Below, in pieces: positions 8,972-63,784 of a DNA stretch of 64,000 nucleotides; the first letter of the stretch is position 1, and each line of letters begins with the position of its first letter. The position numbers and the translations under genes are program-made. The DNA is taken from positions 26,598,596 to 26,662,595 of the forward strand of contig CP099844.1 in NCBI GenBank assembly GCA_030062745.1, given 5' to 3'. The stretch comes from Capitulum mitella (Eukaryota; Arthropoda; Thecostraca; Pollicipedomorpha; Pollicipedidae). The notes under the pieces are model-generated. The model had not been told where the DNA came from. It ran no database searches and worked only from the letters and a program-made list of their open reading frames with translations.

Positions 8972-8974
8972 GCC

Positions 8975-9270
8975 ATGGTGAAGGCTTGGCTAGATGATAT
9001 ATGGAAGAGAGAAAACAAGCTGACGGACATGGCGTTTCGGAACGAAGAAATACTGGTTAGTGTGTTTGTAAAGCACTGCGATTCCGTCCAGCGGGTCAGT
9101 GGAACGGCATTTCTCGACCGGGAAGGACGTTCTGAGGTCAAAGAGGTCCTCCCTCTCCGATGGCAGCCTGGAGCGCCTCATTTTCCTGATTTCCCGACAG
9201 TGAAGGAGGTTTTGAGGGCAAAGAGGTCCTCCCTCTCCAATGGCAGCCTGGAGCGCCTCATTTTCCTGAT
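8975..9270 (+). pseudogene. hAT C-terminal dimerisation domain with an 80-bp tandem duplication
   Basis: In the frame through 9,080-9,190 the protein reads AIPSSGSVERHFSTGKDVL and then KRSSLSDGSLERLIFL, the conserved hAT C-terminal dimerisation motif (S-S-x-x-V-E-R-x-F-S, then L-S-D-x-x-L-E-R-L). It is preceded by SVFVKH in another frame, so a small deletion lies near 9,075. Immediately afterwards 9,191-9,270 repeats 9,111-9,190 with a few substitutions, an 80-bp tandem duplication that adds a second copy of the motif end. Confidence 0.75.
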
Positions 9271-10915
9271 GGTAAATAATGTAACAAATTATCATATTTA
9301 GTTTCCTTAGTTTTTAGACGTTACTTTGTACTGGCTGGCATTGGTTACTGTGTGCAGTTGCACAAATTTTACCATATCAGTGAATCAGTGGTCTTTCTTG
9401 TTCTCATTCACATATCTCATTTACTAATTTTGCAGAGTGTGTACGTCGTCCATCGTCTGTTGTGTCAGTGTGTCAAATGCCGTCACAACTCAATGATGGC
9501 GCCAGCTGGATTCGCGAAATTTGGCATGCAGCTTGGCAAGTGTTAACCGATCATTGCGTCAAAGCTCGGTGACCGTCTACTATTTTGATGCCGATATGGC
9601 GTCACTATGTGATTCCGTCCGATCAGTATGAACTGAACCATTGGTGAAATTAGCGGCCCCATACCGCCCTCCGTGTCCGGCGTTCGATGTGGGTTTCGGG
9701 ATTTCATTAAAAGCCAGACTTAGCATGTTTCCATTGGTGCAATGCTGTGCCGGCAACTGCTTCACAACCTACATTACATACTTTGCCCCTCGGTCACTGC
9801 AGCTGACCCCAACGGTGACCCGGGCTACTTACTATCTCACCTTTCGTGGGATGCAGGGGGGCGTCACCAGAACCCATGCCAGGGAGAGTCAAACGAGTTC
9901 CTTACAAAGTGCATGGGTAATAGATCACCATTAGCTCGGGGTGGTAAGTTGGATACAGGCATAGACAGGCTCAGTTGTACTAGAATGATTTTAGTCGTGC
10001 GGGACCAATTTTGGCGACGCTACTGACTATGTTTACCGGGCTGGGAACGACTGGGCCTGACCCCAGCCCCGCTCAGTAACTGCCCAGGTTCCGGGAAGTC
10101 GTCCCTCAGCGTCGTGTATGCCTTAATTACAAGGCAACCGGCAGTATGCCGAAGCGTAGAAGACGCCAAGCGCAAGAAGGTGTGACAATGAAGCGGAGCA
10201 AGAAGCAGAAGTGAAGGAGGAAAAGTGGAAGAAAAAAGGAGTGAAGAAAATGTGTAGGAAGTCAAAAAGTGAAGCAGGACGCCAGTAGAAGCAGACCGTG
10301 AAGGGACAATGGCAGAACGTTCTTGAAGATAAGCCCATTTTATACCTTTTTTTAGTGTTTTATTTCACAATAATAAAATCCATATAAAAGTCATGTTTTT
10401 TAAGTCTTTCGTCGTTTGGTATTAAAAAAAAAAAAAAACGTCAGGGGTATCAGGAATCTTACATCCACGCACGAGCACGTACACAAACTAATACACACAC
10501 ATAATTTCACAACAAAACAAGAAGTTCACGAGACCGAAACGAGCTCTGCGCGGAGACCATTATGTTCAGGGCGGATACTTTGAGAGGCGTTATTAATCAA
10601 ACTCAGTCGATAGATATCCGCTGCTGGTCGCATTTTGCATGCGTCCGCTCCAGCGCCGGTTGTTCCCGCTCCGTGGGCGCCACGGGAATTCGTTGGTTTG
10701 AACATTGTGGCTAACACAGTGGTAGATTACCCGCTGCGGCTGTTGCCCCGGCGCCGCCGACTCTACAACGGCTGGTGAGGGCATTGGGCAGCTAGCGGAG
10801 TGTTTGGGGTAAGCACTTTTTCTTTCTTCCCTTTGTATATGGAATGTGTTTTACAACCACAAAACAGCATAAAAGACTTAAAACCCGCGTTCTCTTGGTT
10901 TTCGCTGCATTTAAA
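9271..10915. other. hAT interior without coding signal
   Basis: About 1.6 kb between the transposase and the right subterminal repeats. Short frames do not resemble proteins. A purine-rich stretch (10,190-10,300) is followed by AATAAAATCC near 10,371, a possible poly(A) signal for the transposase transcript. Confidence 0.45.
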
Positions 10916-12222: not shown

Positions 12223-13317
12223 AAGATTAGGGCGTACTTTGCTTTAGTTAGCTTTTTATTTGGTTTTTCGATGTCTCGAACTATATGTTTTACTTCATTA
12301 TTCAGTTGGTGTAAAACTGAGCCGAATGAACACATTTAGTATCACATTACTCTTGTGGGTTTTATTTAACGTTTCGGATATAGCACTATCCATTTTCAAA
12401 ATTACAAAGCGACACTGCATTTTGATTACACTTAGGTTTGAAAATAAATCGCAATAAACGTTCGCTCCTCGGTTGCCACACTTTCGATATACATGCCACA
12501 TCAACACAGTTTTGAATGGCCAAAAAAACCCATACCTGCTTTTGCCCACGCTTTCCGCAAAATTATCCGAAGAGTTTCAGGGATACTCCGGCGTTTATTT
12601 GTTTGTTTAGTGCTGGGCTGAATTGTTTGATGTATAATGCTTCAAGGATATGGGGTCTGCGTCGGTCAGTTGTGGATGTGATGATTTCTGTGTTGTCGGT
12701 GAGCTGCTGTCTGGTGATGATGCTGCCGTGGGTGTCCTGCATGTGTGTCTTTGGTGCTCCGTCTTGCAAGTGCATGGTGAGACGTCTCGAGAGTGTTGTT
12801 GTAGTCACACCAACGTAGTCTGAGTTGTATACAATCTGAGTTGTATACAGTCTTCATGTGGGCATGTAAACTTGTAGACTACGTTGGTGCGCTTGAGGTG
12901 TCCGTGTTTCATGGTGGTGTTGGTCTGCATGATGAGGTGGCTGGTTTTCTTGTTCGTGTAGTAGATGGTGAGTTTCAGTCGATGATCTGTGTTATCGCAT
13001 TTTATGTTAGTTTTCGGAATTTGATGGATGACTTTTTCGTCTGTCTTATGGGCTGATGACATTTGATTACAGTAAAATAGTTGGTGGGTGTTCGTCTCCT
13101 TGTCTTCGTTCGGTCTGTTGTGGTTTCTGTCCAGGAAAGTCTTGATATCTTGGTCAATGGTCTTGTTGGAGTAGCCGTTGTTCACCAGGAGCTGTTTCAC
13201 CTGTTGAAGTTCCTGATCTACTAGTTTCCAGTTTCAGCAGGTCTTAATCGCTCTTCGGATGTAGGATCTGACGACGAATAGTTTGTATCGTTCAGGGCAT
13301 TCACTGGTTGCGTCGAG
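12223..13317 (-). mobile_element. Penelope-like element, 3' fragment (left, minus strand)
   Basis: Read on the minus strand, the fragment gives QLLVNNGYSNKTIDQDIKTF, typical of the end of the Penelope reverse transcriptase. This is followed by VVYKFTCPHEDC and the GIY-YIG endonuclease region TTTTLSRRLTMHLQDG with HILEALYIKQFSPALN, which holds the conserved Arg and Glu of that fold. About 340 bp of 3' noncoding DNA follow. The reading frame is not continuous, so this is a broken remnant lacking most of the reverse transcriptase. It faces a second copy at 13,318-14,126. Confidence 0.8.
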
Positions 13318-14124
13318 TCATCCGTCAAATTCTGAAAACTAACATAAAGGCAACAACACAGATCATCAACTGAAACCCACAATCTACTACAAGAACAAGA
13401 AAACCAGCCACTTCATCATGTAGAGCAGCACCACCATGAAACACGGACACCTCAAGCGCACTAACGTAGTCTACAAGTTTACATGCCCACATGAAGATTG
13501 TATACAACTCAGATTGTATACAACTCAGACTACGTTTGTGTGACTACAACAACACTCTCGAGACGTCTCACCATGCACTTGCAAGACGGAGCACCAAAGA
13601 CACACATGCAGGGCACCCACGGCAGCATCATCACCAGACAGCAGCTCACCGACAACACAGAAATCATCACATCCACAACTGACCGACGCAGACCCCATAT
13701 CCTTGAAACATCATACATCAAACAATTCAGCCCAGCACTAATCAAACAAATAAACGCCGGAGTACCGCTGAAACTCTTCGGATAATTTTGCAGAAAGTGT
13801 GGGCAAAAGCAGGTATGGGTTTTTTTTGGCCATTCAGAACTGTGTTGATGTGGCATGTATATCGAAAGTGTGGCAACCGAGGAGCGAACGTTTATTGCTA
13901 TTTATTTTCAAACTTAAGTGTAATCAAAATGCAGTATCGCCTTGTAATTTTGGAAATGGATAGTGCTATATCCGAAGCGTTAAATAAAACCCTCAAGAGT
14001 AATGTGATACTAAATGTGTTCATTCGGCTCAGTTTTACACCAACTGAATGATGAAGTAAAACGTGTAGTTCGAGAAGTCGAAAAAAAATAAAAAGCTAAC
14101 TAAAGCAAAGTACGCCCTAGTCTT

Positions 14125-29589: not shown

Positions 29590-32140
29590 ATGGCATGAAT
29601 TCGGCGAGAAGCCCAGTAAATATTTCTTGTCGCTAGAAAAAACGTCACTACACCAGTAAAATAATACCGTGCTTGCAAACACCCTCGGGCCTAGTTTCAG
29701 ACCATGGAGTCATAATGTCCAATTTGCAGTCCCATTTCAGAAAATTGCTCGAAAATCACTATGTTACAGAACAATGCCAAACCTTTTTTGAGGGTCTAAA
29801 ATTGAAAGTGCTCCATGACGCAGATATTACGAAGATGGAAAAACCTATAAAATTAGAGGAACTAAGCCAGGCTCTTAAAGCCATGAGGAATGGGAAAACA
29901 CCGGGCAGTGACGGATTGACTGAACTCTTTCAATTGTTTTGGAATGGCCTTAAGCACTCTCTCTTGCGGGTGTTTGCGGAACGTTTTGTCAGTAGAAACT
30001 TGCCACTAACCATGAGAGAGGGAATGTTAATCCTTATTCCTAAACCAAACAAGCCTAGAGACCAAATTACTTCATACCGCCCGATAACGTTGTTAAGTGA
30101 CAGCTACAAGACATTGTCAGGAGTGTTAGCCAACCAATACAAGAAAGTGCTGGCGGGTCTCATAGATCCTGCGCAGACAGGTTTTTTGAGAAGTCGGTTC
30201 ATTGGCAATAACATTAGAATTATGTCTGACATAATGTATAAGTTAAAGGAAATAAAACGTCACGGATTGTTCATCAGTTTAGACATCAAAAATGCCTTCA
30301 ACTCTATATCTTGGTCATTTATTCGAGAGGTTTTGAAAAGACATCGTTTTCCATCCAGTTGTATTTTTTTGCTTTGATATTTTGCATGTGCAGTCTTTTT
30401 CAAGGATCCTATATAACGGGCACCTATCCGAAAAAAACTGAGCTGCACAGATCATGCCGCCAAGGGGATCAGCTCAGTTGTTACTTATTTTTGTTGGCAG
30501 TTGAATGTCTTGCCCAGAAAATTCGTGATAACTGTGACAAACAAGGAGTAAAGATAGACGAAGAGGAGTGTAAGATATCGCTGTATGCCTATGACACGCT
30601 TTGTCTTCTGGACGGGGACGTCAACAGCATACGAGCCCTTTTCCATGAGCTTGGCGTGTTTGCCAAATTCTCTGGTCTCACGCCAAATGTGGAAAAAAGC
30701 GGAAGCAATGTGGGTAGGACACATAGAAAATAGTGTTGTAAACGTGTGCCCTGAACTACAGCTGGAATGGGTGAGGAAGATGAAAGTATTAGGCCTTGTC
30801 TTCCAGAACGACTGTGATAACATGTGCCACCACAATTATTGCGATAAGCTAGAGGCTATTAAAAGAACCATCCGAGCATGGAATGTACGTAATCCGACTC
30901 TAGATGGGAAAATCATTGTTAAGTATCTTCTGTTGTCAAAACTGACTCATTTGTTCACGTCACTGCCCTTGCCTCCTTCAGGTTATCTTCAGGAGCTAAA
31001 AACATTGACATTTCGATTCATCTGGAACGGAAAAAGGGCAGACAATGACTAAGAGGCAAACAATGATCAAACTACGAACTAAGGAAGGTATGGCGGTAAT
31101 GGTCCTGGAATCCCCACATTGCTGCTTTGAAGATTTCTTGTGTTAGGAGACAAATGATCTCAACGCATAAATGGACTACACTTTTTCACCCTTTCTGGAG
31201 GAGATCGTTTTTCATCTGGGAGATGAACGCACGATCACTGAGTAACGTTGCCAGCACGATGGGCCATCCTTTCTGGAAGGGGGTCGTCCTGGCCCTCGCA
31301 ACATTTAATGCGGCATACGAAATTCAGGACGAGGACATCGGCTCATGTTCAATCTGGTTCTCAGAGCCAGCAAGTTTGTCAGGACAGGAATACGAGGGTG
31401 GCATGCGTGCGGGATTCGGCGTTTGAATGATTTGCTGGGAAGAGATGGGACGCTTATGAGCTTTAATGACTTCCGAGTTAAATTTAGACTGAACACAACC
31501 TATCTTGATTACATGGGACTTATAGAGAGCCTTTCGCTAAGCTGGAGGCAGTCAAGGCAAGTATTAACGCAGCCGATTATACATCCAGTTGTGAAATATA
31601 TATTGTCAAAGAAGACGGGAGCAAAATGTATCTATGATGTGCCTGTGGAGCGGAAGACCAGAGAAGTGCAAAATATCTGGGAACGTAAATGGGAAGGCTT
31701 CTGTAAACTTTAAGGTACTAGCTAGGATTCAGGTCACACAAGTTCTGCTGCAGAGAATTGGAATAGAGCAGACGGAATGTATGCAAAACATTGCAACATG
31801 GGAAGTGAAACGTTAATGGATAAATTCTGGAGCTGTTGCATTACTAAACGATTTTGGGCAGACATCGAGAGGTATCTGAGACATATGAACATGTTGGAGG
31901 AAAACCAAAATATAAGCTCAAGGGATGTAATATTGGGCACAAATATAGGTCTTATGGTAAATCGTGCACTTGCGGTGGCAAAATATATGATAAGTAAAGG
32001 GTGGAGCCTAAATAAGGATGCTTTCATTAACAAATTAAAGGCTGATCGTAGGGTGGAACACGTCTCGTCTATTATGAGGAATCCTGAGCACAGACTTCAC
32101 ATGAAGTGGGGAAATGTTGTTCATCTAACACAGTAAACAC
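29590..32140 (+). mobile_element. L1/Tx1-type LINE, 5'-truncated, decayed
   Basis: The sequence starts in the frame WHEFGEKPSKYFLSLEK (29,590 on), the segment before the reverse transcriptase in L1/Tx1 elements. Then, from about 29,830, come MRNGKTPGSDGLTELF, ILIPKPNKPRDQITSYRPIT, LIDPAQTGFLRSRFIGNNIR and LFISLDIKNAFNSISWSFI (motif A, with D-I-K-N-A-F-N). After a frame change near 30,370 come CRQGDQLSCYLFLLAVE and then SLYAYDTLCLL, where the catalytic YADD is YAYD, so the copy is catalytically dead. The connection region reads LTFRFIWNGKRADND (about 31,000). A C-terminal segment runs to 32,136 (KFWSCCITKRFWADI). The upstream endonuclease is missing. At least four frame changes imply an old copy. 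Confidence 0.88.
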
Positions 32141-60071: not shown

Positions 60072-60215
60072 CTAGCTGAAGAGATCGCCGGCAGATGGCA
60101 GGGGCGCGAAGGCACCCGTCACATTGGGCAACTTGCTGATGTCCGGCAGGTTCTGTATGTGCGACTTCAGTTCCTCCCGCACCAGATATACTTTTTCCAG
60201 TTTGTGCCGGTATTC
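60072..60215 (-). CDS. RPRD1B: RPRD1 last coding exon
   Basis: It codes EYRHKLEKVYLVREELKSHI, QNLPDISKLPNVTG and AFAPLPSAGDLFS, then TAG (60,072-60,074). This matches the end of vertebrate RPRD1A/B almost residue by residue, minus the final two. The acceptor is GCTCCAG before GAATAC. Length is exactly 48 codons. Confidence 0.95.
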   Translation of the reverse strand, partial: EYRHKLEKVYLVREELKSHIQNLPDISKLPNVTGAFAPLPSAGDLFS

Positions 60216-63200
60216 CTGGAGCAAGAAGCGTTCTTCCAGAACGAGCAACCGACCATATTTACATAATGTATTTTGGTCGAACCAGTCGTGATGAATTTGC
60301 GCACATATTGCCGTATGAAACGATCACTTGCCCATAAACCAATTCTACGGATAAACAGCAGACGATGAAAACTAAACAGCGTTGTTAGCGTAAGTATGCG
60401 CGAGACCATATCGAATTTTGCTAATGTTTTTAATGGCACATTAAAAAAACGTGCCAAAGATGAGATGGTGGAGCTTACAGTTACATCTATTTTGTGAATC
60501 CTTTTTATGCGATTATGTTGAAACACATCCCAAGCAATGCTAACAAATAAGCTCTCGTCAATATTAACTATCCGGCCATCTCCGACATTACTGGGAACGG
60601 GGGTATGACCCCTAGCTATTTCCAGCCAGACGTGACACAGCAATGAAGCAAGGACGAGCGTGTAGTTTGGGCGTTTGGGTACACGACATCCAGTTTGACC
60701 AATAAGTCACTGTGACCTTAAATGTGATTTCAAAAGTCATGTCAGTGTATCACAGTTTGCAACGAATCCCATGGAAAGTAATCTACATGGTGCTTTTGAG
60801 GAGCCTGTGACGATGACTCGTGACGATGAACAGGGACTGAAACAACCGCTACTACACAAGTCAACGTTTCCGACTATTTCATCGCCGCTCAGAGGCCAAT
60901 AAAGGTCAAAACGTCATGAACCTCAAGTCAGCCTACCATGAAGTCACTGACCTCGCCTACGATGAACTTCACCGAAGTGGGGACCTGAGCGTTCAGATTA
61001 CTAGCATCAGGGACAACACCCATGGACGCATGCATCAGACTGAATGTTACGATACGAACCAAGTATCGTAAAACGCCTAAAACGTCTCCTTTACGAGGAA
61101 GTGATCACCGCTCTGAGGTCAGTAAAGGTAAAAAAGTCACTGACCCCAAATCAGGATTATGGCCTACGATAAGCTTCACCGAAGTGGGGGCCAAAGCGTG
61201 TAGATTACTTAGATCACGGATAACACCCGCCTTCAGACACATGCATCAGATTGGGTGCGATCAAGTATCGTAAAACACTTAAAACGTCCGCCTTACAATG
61301 ACGGACCGTAACCGCATCCTGATCTCCAACATTCCTCTAGAAAGGAGTCAGAGTGAGGGTCGCAATTGTAGCAGCCGTACGATAACTTGCGAGAAATTTA
61401 CCCCTCCGCATCAGCGACGGTTAACCCATTAAATGTATGTACAGGGATTGATCCATGTAAAGGTTAACACAGCCACACGGCGCATGATGCGGCCTCGCCA
61501 GAGGTCGTCAGCTGACGCCGGCGACAGTGGGCGCCGCGTTCTCACCTCCAGCGTGCGTTCCGCCTGGGCCAGCAAGTCCTTCTGGCTCTGCGTGAAGTCC
61601 TGCAGCAGGCGCGAAACTCGCTTCCGCTCGTCCATCTCCCCCGCCAGCCGGCTGTTGTAGTCTGTTAGCAGGTCCAGCGCCTCCGACACCTGTCCCAGCA
61701 GCCGCTGCCCGGAGCTGCGGTCTGCAAGGTCATGGGAAGGTCATATTCACGCCCAACGCCTCCGACACCTGCCCCAGCAGCCGCCGTCCGGAGCTGCGGT
61801 CTGCAAGGTCATGGGAAGATCATATTCACGCCCAACGCCTCCGACGCCTGCCCCAGCAGCCGCCGTCCGGAGCTGCGGTCCGCAAGGTCATGGGAAGGTC
61901 AAGTTCGGGTCCAGCGCCTCCGATACCTTGCCCAGCAGCCGTTTTTATGTTATTTTTACTTTCCATCACGTTTGCCTTTGTATATTTATTCCGTCACCCA
62001 AGCTGCGTTCTGAAATGTCACAGGGAGGTCGTTTTCATGGCCAGCACTTGTCGCTGTATCGCGATCATAACTGCCACACGGTAACCCAGTTAATCATGTT
62101 CTACTGTTAACACTCAGTAAACTGAATTCTGTCGCGAGCAGCGTGACAATGTCCAGGTTCACCTCATTAAAGTACATCTACTAACAAAACATCAAGATCT
62201 AACACCATTTTACTGAGGCCGTCACACACCATATCCCCACTCCTGTTGACACCTTTTCCACATCCTGATCGGACACATCACTACGAGTCCCGGCACAGCT
62301 GACATCACTGGCCACGTCAGTGTCTGCTGTGAAGCGGGGCGAACCTGTGCAGGGAAGGAGCCCCCACTCACCCTGCAGTCGGGCCAACATCGCCGCATCC
62401 GACACCTCCGGCGGCAGGCTGGAGATCTTCTCACGGGTGGCCGCGTCCGCCGATGCAGAGTTCTCCAGGTCCTGGTCGCGGTCACCGCACACAGGTCACA
62501 CAAAGGTCACAATAAGGTCACCTGTATCACCAGGTTCTCCAGGTCTTGTCCGCGGTCACCGCACATACGTCATACAAAGGTCACAATAAGGTCACCTGTA
62601 TCATCAGGTTCTCCAGGTCATGCCCTCGGTCAACGCACACGGGTCATACAGAGGGCCGTAAGGGGTCACACAAGTCACACAAAGGTCACCACTATCACCC
62701 GAGGGCGCCGAGTCCTCCAGATCCTCATCGCAGTCACCGCACACGGTCACGTGACGGCCGCGCAAATGGCGCCACTATCACCAGAGGATGCAGAGTTCTC
62801 CAGACTACGCTTACCACGCGCGGACCATAAGGATTTTGCAAACTGCATTAACTGCCTGTGCGCGACGCACATAGATCAATAAATCGAGGACCCAGTCAGT
62901 GGCTTTTGACGGTTCTGAATCAGCGTCATGAAGACTGTTGAAATTGATTAACCACGGCAGCGAAGATTTTGCCAACAGAGCCAGACGACCATTTACGTTT
63001 GTGTCGCAACGATAGAAAAACACGAAGAACATGTACTGATTTATGGTGTCAGCTAATCAAGATGTCACACTCTTGTCTGCCACATCTGACGACCCGAGCA
63101 AAACAATACGTAGATGCCGCCAACGATTTATTTCTTTCCTGGCGATGAGGGCCCACCAAGGTCATGTTTGTGCCGTCCTACCGGCTCGGTCGTACCGACC

Positions 63201-63784
63201 TGGAGGGCCTTGATGAGTTCGGCCGGCTCTGGCGGGTCCCTTGCAGGCGAGTGCGGCGACAACATCACGTGCACCTCCTTGTGGCCCTCCACCTCCACCT
63301 CCTGGCGCAGCAGGACAGCCAGATTAAGGCGCCTTTACGCGCCGTGCGGCCGACGTCCCCGACAATAACTGACGACAGGGTCTGTCCGCCACGGACCGAA
63401 TCGTGCACGACCATCATGCACAATCTCCACTTAGACTTGCGCGCCGTCAGATGCTCAGTTTAGTCCAGCAGCAGCAACATCAGCACGGCGAAAAGTCCTC
63501 TTATAATCATCAAACATAAATATCCCAAATCATCAAACATAAATACCCAACAATTTTCCTCTCGCACCCCTGCGGGACTGACGACTCGGGCGGACGGCAC
63601 CGCCAGGAGCCGTCAGCCACGCACCACGCGTGCGGCGCCCGACCCACCTTGACCTCTGGCTTCCTGCGCTCCTCAGAGGGGCGCCGCTTGACCGGGGCCT
63701 CCTTGGCGACCCGCTTCTTCTTGGGCGGCGGCTCCTTGAACAGGCCGTCCGGACTCATGGCCGGGCTCGACTTGCCGCCGCTCT
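60072..63784 (-). CDS. RPRD1B: RPRD1 (CREPT/p15RS-like) RNA polymerase II CTD-associated protein, 3' part
   Basis: Five exons cover the C-terminal two thirds of an RPRD1 protein: 63,784-63,648, 63,301-63,200, 62,471-62,372, 61,721-61,546 and 60,215-60,072. RPRD1 proteins bind the phosphorylated RNA polymerase II tail through an N-terminal CID and dimerise through a C-terminal coiled coil, helping RPAP2 act on Ser5 and shaping cyclin D and Wnt-target transcription. Visible here are a basic, NLS-like linker (PPPKKKRVAKEAPVKRRPSE), PAELIKALQDLENSASADAA (the start of the conserved C-terminal domain), the coiled coil SEALDLLTDYNSRLAGEMDE and onward, and the conserved end NVTGAFAPLPSAGDLFS. All four junctions are in phase. 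The CID exons lie past position 64,000. Whether it is orthologous to RPRD1A or RPRD1B is open, since invertebrates usually have one gene. Confidence 0.93.
60216..61545 (-). other. RPRD1 intron with a ~200-bp tandem duplication
   Basis: Between 60,893 and 61,310 two diverged copies of a roughly 200-bp unit follow one another. Shared phrases are TCACCGAAGTGGGG, CAGATTACT or TAGATTACT, ACACATGCATCAGA or GCATGCATCAGA, and AAGTATCGTAAAAC. A 158-codon minus frame at 60,167-60,643 overlaps the exon but resembles nothing. Confidence 0.65.
61546..61721 (-). CDS. RPRD1B: RPRD1 coiled-coil exon
   Basis: It codes RSSGQRLLGQVSEALDLLTD, YNSRLAGEMDERKRVSRLLQ and DFTQSQKDLLAQAERTLE, the dimerising helix of the family. 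The acceptor is CTTGCAG before ACCGCAG; the donor is GAG before GTGAGA. It enters in phase 1 and leaves in phase 0. Confidence 0.95.
61722..61945 (-). repeat. 79-bp minisatellite copying the acceptor and start of the RPRD1 coiled-coil exon
   Basis: The acceptor plus about 50 bp of exon (on the plus strand CCGGAGCTGCGGTCTGCAAG with the GCCTCCGACACCTG region) recur at exact 79-bp steps: 61,722, 61,801 and 61,880. A partial fourth copy ends near 61,945. The first extra copy keeps CTTGCAG. The copy at 61,880 has CTTGCGG, so its acceptor is lost. Confidence 0.9.
62372..62471 (-). CDS. RPRD1B: RPRD1 exon DLENSASADA
   Basis: It codes DLENSASADAATREKISSLP and PEVSDAAMLARLQ plus one base. It aligns with the human stretch starting DLENAASGDATVRQKI. 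The acceptor is GCGACCAG, with a weak pyrimidine tract; the donor is CAGG before GTGAGT. Confidence 0.93.
62461..62820 (-). repeat. 74-bp repeat array copying the acceptor end of RPRD1 exon DLENSASADA
   Basis: The exon's first bases and acceptor (plus strand TTCTCCAGGTCCTGGTCGCG) recur at 62,535 and 62,609 (steps of exactly 74 bp), again around 62,713, and in a longer exon-edge copy GGATGCAGAGTTCTCCAG near 62,785-62,802. Between them lie GGTCACACAAAGGTCACAAT segments with AGGTCA-type words. Confidence 0.85.
63200..63301 (-). CDS. RPRD1B: RPRD1 exon EVEVEGH..AELIKALQ
   Basis: Exactly 34 codons: EVEVEGHKEVHVMLSPHSPA and RDPPEPAELIKALQ. The last eight residues match TEELIKALQ of vertebrate RPRD1. 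The acceptor is TGCGCCAG; the donor is CAG before GTCGGT, weaker than usual. Phase 0 on both sides. Confidence 0.88.
63648..63784 (-). CDS. RPRD1B: RPRD1 basic linker exon (most upstream exon in the window)
   Basis: It codes SGGKSSPAMSPDGLFKEPPP, then KKKRVAKEAPVKRRPSEERR and KPEVK. Two basic clusters spaced by about ten residues look like a bipartite nuclear localisation signal, as expected after the CID. The acceptor is TTTCAG; the donor is AAG before GTGGGT. Confidence 0.85.

Follow-up and report, generated by a model that had tools for sequence, protein, structure and literature searches.

The RPRD1 Locus and Its Surroundings

The window, i.e., the whole stretch of 64,000 nucleotides of the barnacle Capitulum mitella that was analysed, contains part of the RPRD1 gene, in which two neighbouring acceptors are each spanned by a minisatellite array (Table 1). 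A preliminary description made from the DNA alone had already named the gene RPRD1, and this identification was borne out by a domain profile search, in which the product matches CREPT (5.1e-61) and CID (4.7e-37), and by its best solved structure, human RPRD1B (4nad; 4.1e-50). The protein assembled from the seven exons comprises 349 residues, with CID and CREPT domains. When the authentic acceptors are used the product is gap-free relative to human RPRD1B, residues 203-349 aligning to 4nad without a gap; the exon at 61721-61546 then starts with DRSSGQRLLGQ. A profile search of the contigs found a single CREPT locus in the genome, which is RPRD1 itself (three exon matches). Three other CID matches have no neighbouring CREPT match, and no RPRD1 paralogue usable for dating was found in this search. 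An ancient whole-genome duplication has been reported for barnacles (PMC11331182), despite which only one CREPT locus was found.

Table 1. Features of the RPRD1 locus and of the kinesin duplication discussed in the text. Positions are those of the window unless another locus is named; a slash marks the exon border.
Feature	Position	Strand	Details
RPRD1, part inside the window	60072..63784	-	exons 63784-63648, 63301-63200, 62471-62372, 61721-61546, 60215-60072
RPRD1 exons 1 and 2	outside the window, in L051		exon 2 L051:240-479, exon 1 donor L051:692
Authentic coiled-coil exon (DRSSGQRLLGQVSEAL...AERTLE)	61546..61721	-	acceptor CTTGCAG/ACC, donor GAG/GTGAGA
Upstream exon (DLENSASADAATREKISSLPPEVSDAAMLARLQ)	62372..62471	-	acceptor GACCAG/GAC
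Array 1, unit T, authentic copy	61674..61752	-	31 nt intron tail + 48 nt exon head
Array 1, unit A, first extra copy	61753..61831	-	decoy acceptor CTTGCAG 61800; 74/79 to T
Array 1, unit B, second extra copy	61832..61910	-	acceptor lost, CTTGCGG 61879; 68/79 to T
Array 1, outer degenerate unit	61911..62056	-	exon-head part + AT-rich insertion + intron tail ending TTTCAG
Second array, period 74	62460..62681	-	TRF 62460-62654, 2.6 copies; repeat family D2
Second array, authentic unit	62460-62533	-	
Second array, copies	62534-62607 (91%) and 62608-62681 (69%)	-	
Second array, outer degenerate pieces	62707..62803 (62707-62750 and 62787-62803)	-	scores 59, 34 versus shuffle maxima 31, 29
L046 acceptor-spanning duplication	about 6200-6390 of L046		offset 89 bp; intron tail + CCCCCAG + exon start copied upstream

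Several other features lie in the window. Two 80-bp tandem copies with 91% matches occur at 9109-9270, inside an open frame (8972-9301) that presumably resembles a remnant of a hAT transposase; the open frame next to it has no Pfam match. Two nearly identical open frames (RLYTTQIVYNSDYV...) at 12563-12853 on the reverse strand and 13495-13785 on the forward strand, about 640 bases apart, have what we take to be a resemblance to the GIY-YIG end of a Penelope-like element. A reverse transcriptase fragment of a LINE-like element (RVT_1, 4.1e-15) is found at 29637-30374 on the forward strand.

Array 1: 79-bp Units Spanning the Acceptor of the Coiled-Coil Exon

The first array spans the authentic acceptor CTTGCAG/ACC, whose first exon base is 61721, so that the authentic boundary itself belongs to one of the units, unit T. 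TRF reports a period of 79 with 3.4 copies at 61674-61941 (90% matches, 0% indels), and a repeat search places a 24-nt core at 61678, 61757, 61836 and 61915, i.e., at spacings of 79, 79 and 79. At lag 79, the best 150-base stretch contains 141 matches versus a maximum of 62 in 500 dinucleotide shuffles; over lags of 20-399, the maximum in 50 shuffles was 67 matches. The unit consists of 31 bases of intron, up to and including the AG, and 48 bases of coding sequence, and a MAFFT alignment of the units returns a matching array structure. Both the three 79-bp steps and the make-up of the unit (intron end, acceptor and about 50 coding bases) thus stand as they were first described. The units differ from each other by 5 to 11 of 79 bases, with identity to T dropping outwards (T-A 74, T-B 68; A-B 71). 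In their exon parts, A and B are alike at 47 of 48 bases, T agreeing with A at 44 and with B at 43.

The extent first given for the array, 61722-61945, proved too small, as the array present there continues to about 62056. Its outer unit is interrupted by approximately 51 AT-rich bases at about 61946-61996, the edges of which are ambiguous; judged by eye, this insertion is perhaps flanked on both sides by ACGG. Beyond the insertion lies a diverged copy of the acceptor, TTTCAG/AACGC, at 62009. When unit A, doubled, is used as the query, this copy obtains a score of 44, with 38 of 51 aligned columns alike, versus shuffle maxima of 33 and 43 in two sets of 300 shuffles (none of the 600 reaches it). 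The match is not significant with the outer C unit as the query (score 24, reached by 16 of 300 shuffles) or with the exon (score 21, reached by 87 of 300), and the acceptor copy at 62009 is therefore likely, rather than certain, to belong to the array. A search for a further extension past 62046 gave scores of only 15 (attained in 252 of 300 shuffles), 19 (in 160) and 21 (in 55), and no significant copy was found on the downstream exon side, beyond 61673, where a score of 25 was also attained in 63 of 300 shuffles.

The outer copy retains GCGCTGGACC, as does the true exon. Together with the near-identity of the exon parts of A and B, from which T differs at more positions, this would fit an old duplication, with the inner units exchanging sequence at a later time. 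The preliminary description would have been contradicted by an occurrence of the same array elsewhere in the genome without the exon sequence. This was looked for in the 16 contigs of the 477-Mb genome, and with very common words skipped the array was found in one place only.

A Second Array at the Neighbouring Acceptor

The next exon upstream, with its acceptor at 62471, carries an acceptor-spanning array of its own that did not appear in the preliminary description and is built of 74-bp units. Its outer, older and degenerate pieces exceed the shuffle maxima (100 shuffles each) and, read by eye, still translate as LEDSAPSGDSG and LENSASSGDSG. Like array 1, the second array was found in one place only of the 477-Mb genome, very common words again being skipped. 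Array 1 is real, and it is larger and less isolated than first described. DNA searches detected no match between the two arrays; the motif AAGGTCA is present in both. In the window, AGGTCA is frequent and strand-skewed, with 81 occurrences on the forward and 48 on the reverse strand (40 and 15 for AAGGTCA), and it occurs in several different minisatellite units, those of both RPRD1 arrays included.

Decoy Acceptors and Splicing

An acceptor-spanning array confronts the splicing machinery with copies of the site it has to recognise. In array 1, two of the three extra acceptor copies keep an AG (61800 and 62009, the copy at 61879 being without it), which leaves one of the two near decoys (61800, 61879) with an AG. 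Scored with a weight matrix built from 47 kinesin acceptors, the authentic site at 61721 reaches 3.1 bits and the decoys at 61800, 61879 and 62009 reach 2.3, -3.8 and 0.0 bits, respectively; 19% of the authentic sites score no higher than 61721 and 13% no higher than 61800. The usable-looking CTTGCAG that had been ascribed to the first extra copy is intact. The plural in the tandem decoy acceptors first proposed was too generous, since 61879 has lost its AG and 62009 scores 0.0 bits. The matrix is weak, because within this intron several other AGs score above the authentic site as well as above the decoy (62344, 9.9 bits; 62128, 8.9; 62323, 8.5; 61768, 7.5; 61847, 7.1), and it shows that 61721 and 61800 are alike, not which of them is used.

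Use of the decoy at 61800 is predicted to add 79 bases and to shift the frame, leading to a stop after 23 residues (DRSSGRRLLGQVSEALGVNMTFP); the decoy peptide given in the preliminary description is correct in this respect, and the decoy at 61879 would likewise lead to a stop after 23 residues. If 61800 were used at some level, the resulting premature-stop (poison) form of RPRD1 could tune the expression of the gene, a reading to which both the frame shift and the preserved CTTGCAG, close in score to the authentic site, lend some plausibility. We nevertheless consider it unlikely, as the second near decoy has no AG, only the authentic AG of the second array reaches 4 bits, and arrays of this kind in amphioxus are reported not to disturb splicing (PMC3087553, PMC3902484). 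To judge from amphioxus, for which the published results point to regular splicing, use of the decoys is most likely rare or absent. The extra copies would then be removed as intron, and the array's last acceptor would be the authentic one.

Minisatellites and Splice Sites in Kinesin Introns

Whether arrays are tied to splice sites was assessed in introns of one gene family, kinesin, the myosin and chaperonin matches being left out. The sample covers 76 of 129 kinesin profile matches, in 19 of about 30 gene loci. Borders could be called for 47 introns, which come from 18 of these 19 loci. Three acceptor calls with negative scores (L043_5324, L044_5006 and L047_5091) were kept in the counts, in which at least three calls are doubtful; judged from sequence, the one in L047 is apparently some bases off. 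Comparable repeats, sought with 80-base probes, cover 1 of 47 acceptors, 1 of 47 donors and 39 of 658 interior points, the last of which are not independent, were compared with 40 shuffles each and may include chance hits among the lower scores. The 39 interior points fall in 11 of the 47 introns, 16 of them in a single one (L041_2984). When only scores of at least 60 are counted, repeats remain at 24 of 658 interior points, which lie in 5 introns, at 1 of 47 acceptors and at none of the 47 donors. In a coarser run that also took in RPRD1 and probed each intron at a single interior point, spanning matches turned up at 3 of 51 acceptors and at 1 of 51 donors, compared with 3 of 45 interior points.

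The single kinesin acceptor with an array, in L046, provides a third case that was not chosen for it, with one extra copy at an offset of 89 bases. The two versions of the exon start read TRKPFRDFA against TRVPFRDSA, and the decoy acceptor scores 6.6 bits versus 7.1 for the authentic one, its use being predicted to lead to a stop after 21 residues. A related gene in L047 has no such copy (best score 26, obtained without shuffle control). On the donor side, an array in L045 is borderline, with a score of 40 versus shuffle maxima of 39 and 34, and was counted as a match that is not secure; the donor probes L048_4703 and L050_6040 gave significant matches, none of which crosses the boundary. In the short kinesin intron at 4405-4922 of L045, a GTGTGACGCGTCAC-like repeat is abundant and may extend over the donor.

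The preliminary description had interpreted array 1 as slippage or unequal exchange pinned to a splice site; the pinning finds no support in the kinesin introns, where 1 of 47 acceptors is covered versus 39 of 658 interior points. An acceptor-specific mechanism, e.g., transcription-linked breaks at the 3' ends of introns, could in principle seed such arrays. In RPRD1 two neighbouring acceptors of six are affected and none of six donors, which exceeds what a coverage of 6% predicts in a gene that was itself chosen because of one of the two arrays, and 40 bases upstream of the kinesin acceptors repeats are found in 4 of 47 cases versus 2 of 47 equally far from the donors. However, at 80 bases the relation is 2 of 46 for acceptors versus 3 of 46 for donors, and at the boundaries themselves acceptors and donors are covered equally often, both below the interior rate. 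The distance profile shows no firm excess near acceptors and no clear shift of arrays towards the 3' ends of introns. Such a mechanism is accordingly very unlikely: with no firm acceptor excess, frequent intron minisatellites that happen to overlap exon edges are enough to account for the arrays, and no splice-site-directed mechanism is needed.

Origin and Meaning of the Arrays

In the introns sampled from this genome, repeats of such a length are common, and some of them overrun exon edges. Against this background, we read array 1 as an acceptor-spanning minisatellite of the kind named 'mirage' in amphioxus, produced by ordinary turnover of intron repeats that overran a splice site, and give this reading a probability of roughly 0.8. 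The first duplication would have arisen by slippage or unequal exchange, with breakpoints perhaps at two short look-alikes recognised by eye, GCGCTGGACC in the exon and GTGCTGGCC in the intron. Later steps would have been unequal exchanges in the 79-bp register, and the resulting array would have no dedicated function. Nothing in the analysis points to a special mechanism or function. Introduction of the repeated units by misassembly is highly improbable, since they diverge from one another at 5 to 11 of 79 bases, the outermost contains an insertion and two different arrays lie within one gene.

Introners and other intron-borne transposable elements also consist of repeated sequence with splice signals. 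A dispersed element of this type was considered and rejected: neither RPRD1 array was found at a second place in the genome (very common words skipped), and the units contain coding sequence of the host gene. Occurrence in one place, in combination with the divergence of the copies, argues against a dispersed element as well as against a simple assembly duplication.

The presence of arrays in two of the six RPRD1 introns (the gene having been chosen for one of them) and at one of 47 kinesin acceptors suggests that such arrays result from a lively turnover of intron minisatellites and are not a peculiarity of lancelets. A wider proposal, which we advance only tentatively and hold to be doubtful, is that boundary-spanning minisatellites are a general and independently evolved property of this barnacle genome. 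At about 2% of acceptors (1/47) they would affect many hundreds of genes and could serve as a permanent reservoir from which shifted splice sites, extended exons and new introns arise, as has been proposed from the amphioxus globins. With acceptors that are locally almost the same and lie 79 bases from each other, the arrays provide a natural setting for testing how the spliceosome selects one of them, and also for testing whether such repeats feed intron gain.

Comparison With Known Systems

Internal tandem repeats at exon-intron boundaries have been described in human segmental duplications, where intron formation via cryptic splice sites was proposed (PMC2812944). The RPRD1 arrays share with these the position of tandem repeats at a boundary. 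The human repeats, as reported there, belong to recent primate paralogues and have units of about 30 bp on average, whereas RPRD1 has a single CREPT locus and units of 74 and 79 bp. A literature search for barnacle minisatellites at splice sites returned none. Among the papers listed in wider searches, a spider genome (PMC9912274) and the milkweed bug genome (PMC6444547) included, no arthropod report of boundary-spanning arrays was recognisable from title or opening of the abstract, most subscription journals being outside the reach of the search.

The closest counterparts are the 'mirage' minisatellites of amphioxus, which span the exon-intron boundaries of Adh3 and of the globins BflGb6 and BflGb9 (PMC3087553), with TnC and PGBD5 added later (PMC3902484). 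The arrays called mirage in these two reports are all from amphioxus. Their units measure 10 to 160 bp, the splice signals are kept in many copies though not in every one, and the edge copies are excluded from homogenisation (PMC3087553, PMC3902484); RT-PCR results suggest that splicing is regular (PMC3087553). The preliminary description was fair in calling arrays of this sort seldom described, although they had already been published as amphioxus mirages (PMC3087553, PMC3902484). Both RPRD1 arrays and the kinesin duplication in L046 resemble the mirages in being tandem copies of part of an exon together with intron and splice site. Array 1 in addition adjoins the authentic boundary, which lies inside one of its units, and many but not all of its copies keep the AG, a likeness that is weaker in the second array. 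Mirages as a class are expected to vary in length between haplotypes or somatically and to leave mRNA splicing regular. The RPRD1 arrays are known from one assembly. Unlike in amphioxus, the host is an arthropod, and two neighbouring introns of one gene each have a unit of their own. The genome gives at least 150 matches to Chitin_bind_4, a cuticle domain that marks arthropods, with 150 of 627 candidates scored, which speaks against an amphioxus origin of the DNA. The kind of repeat seen in RPRD1 is already known; what is new is its occurrence in a distant phylum, not its mechanism.
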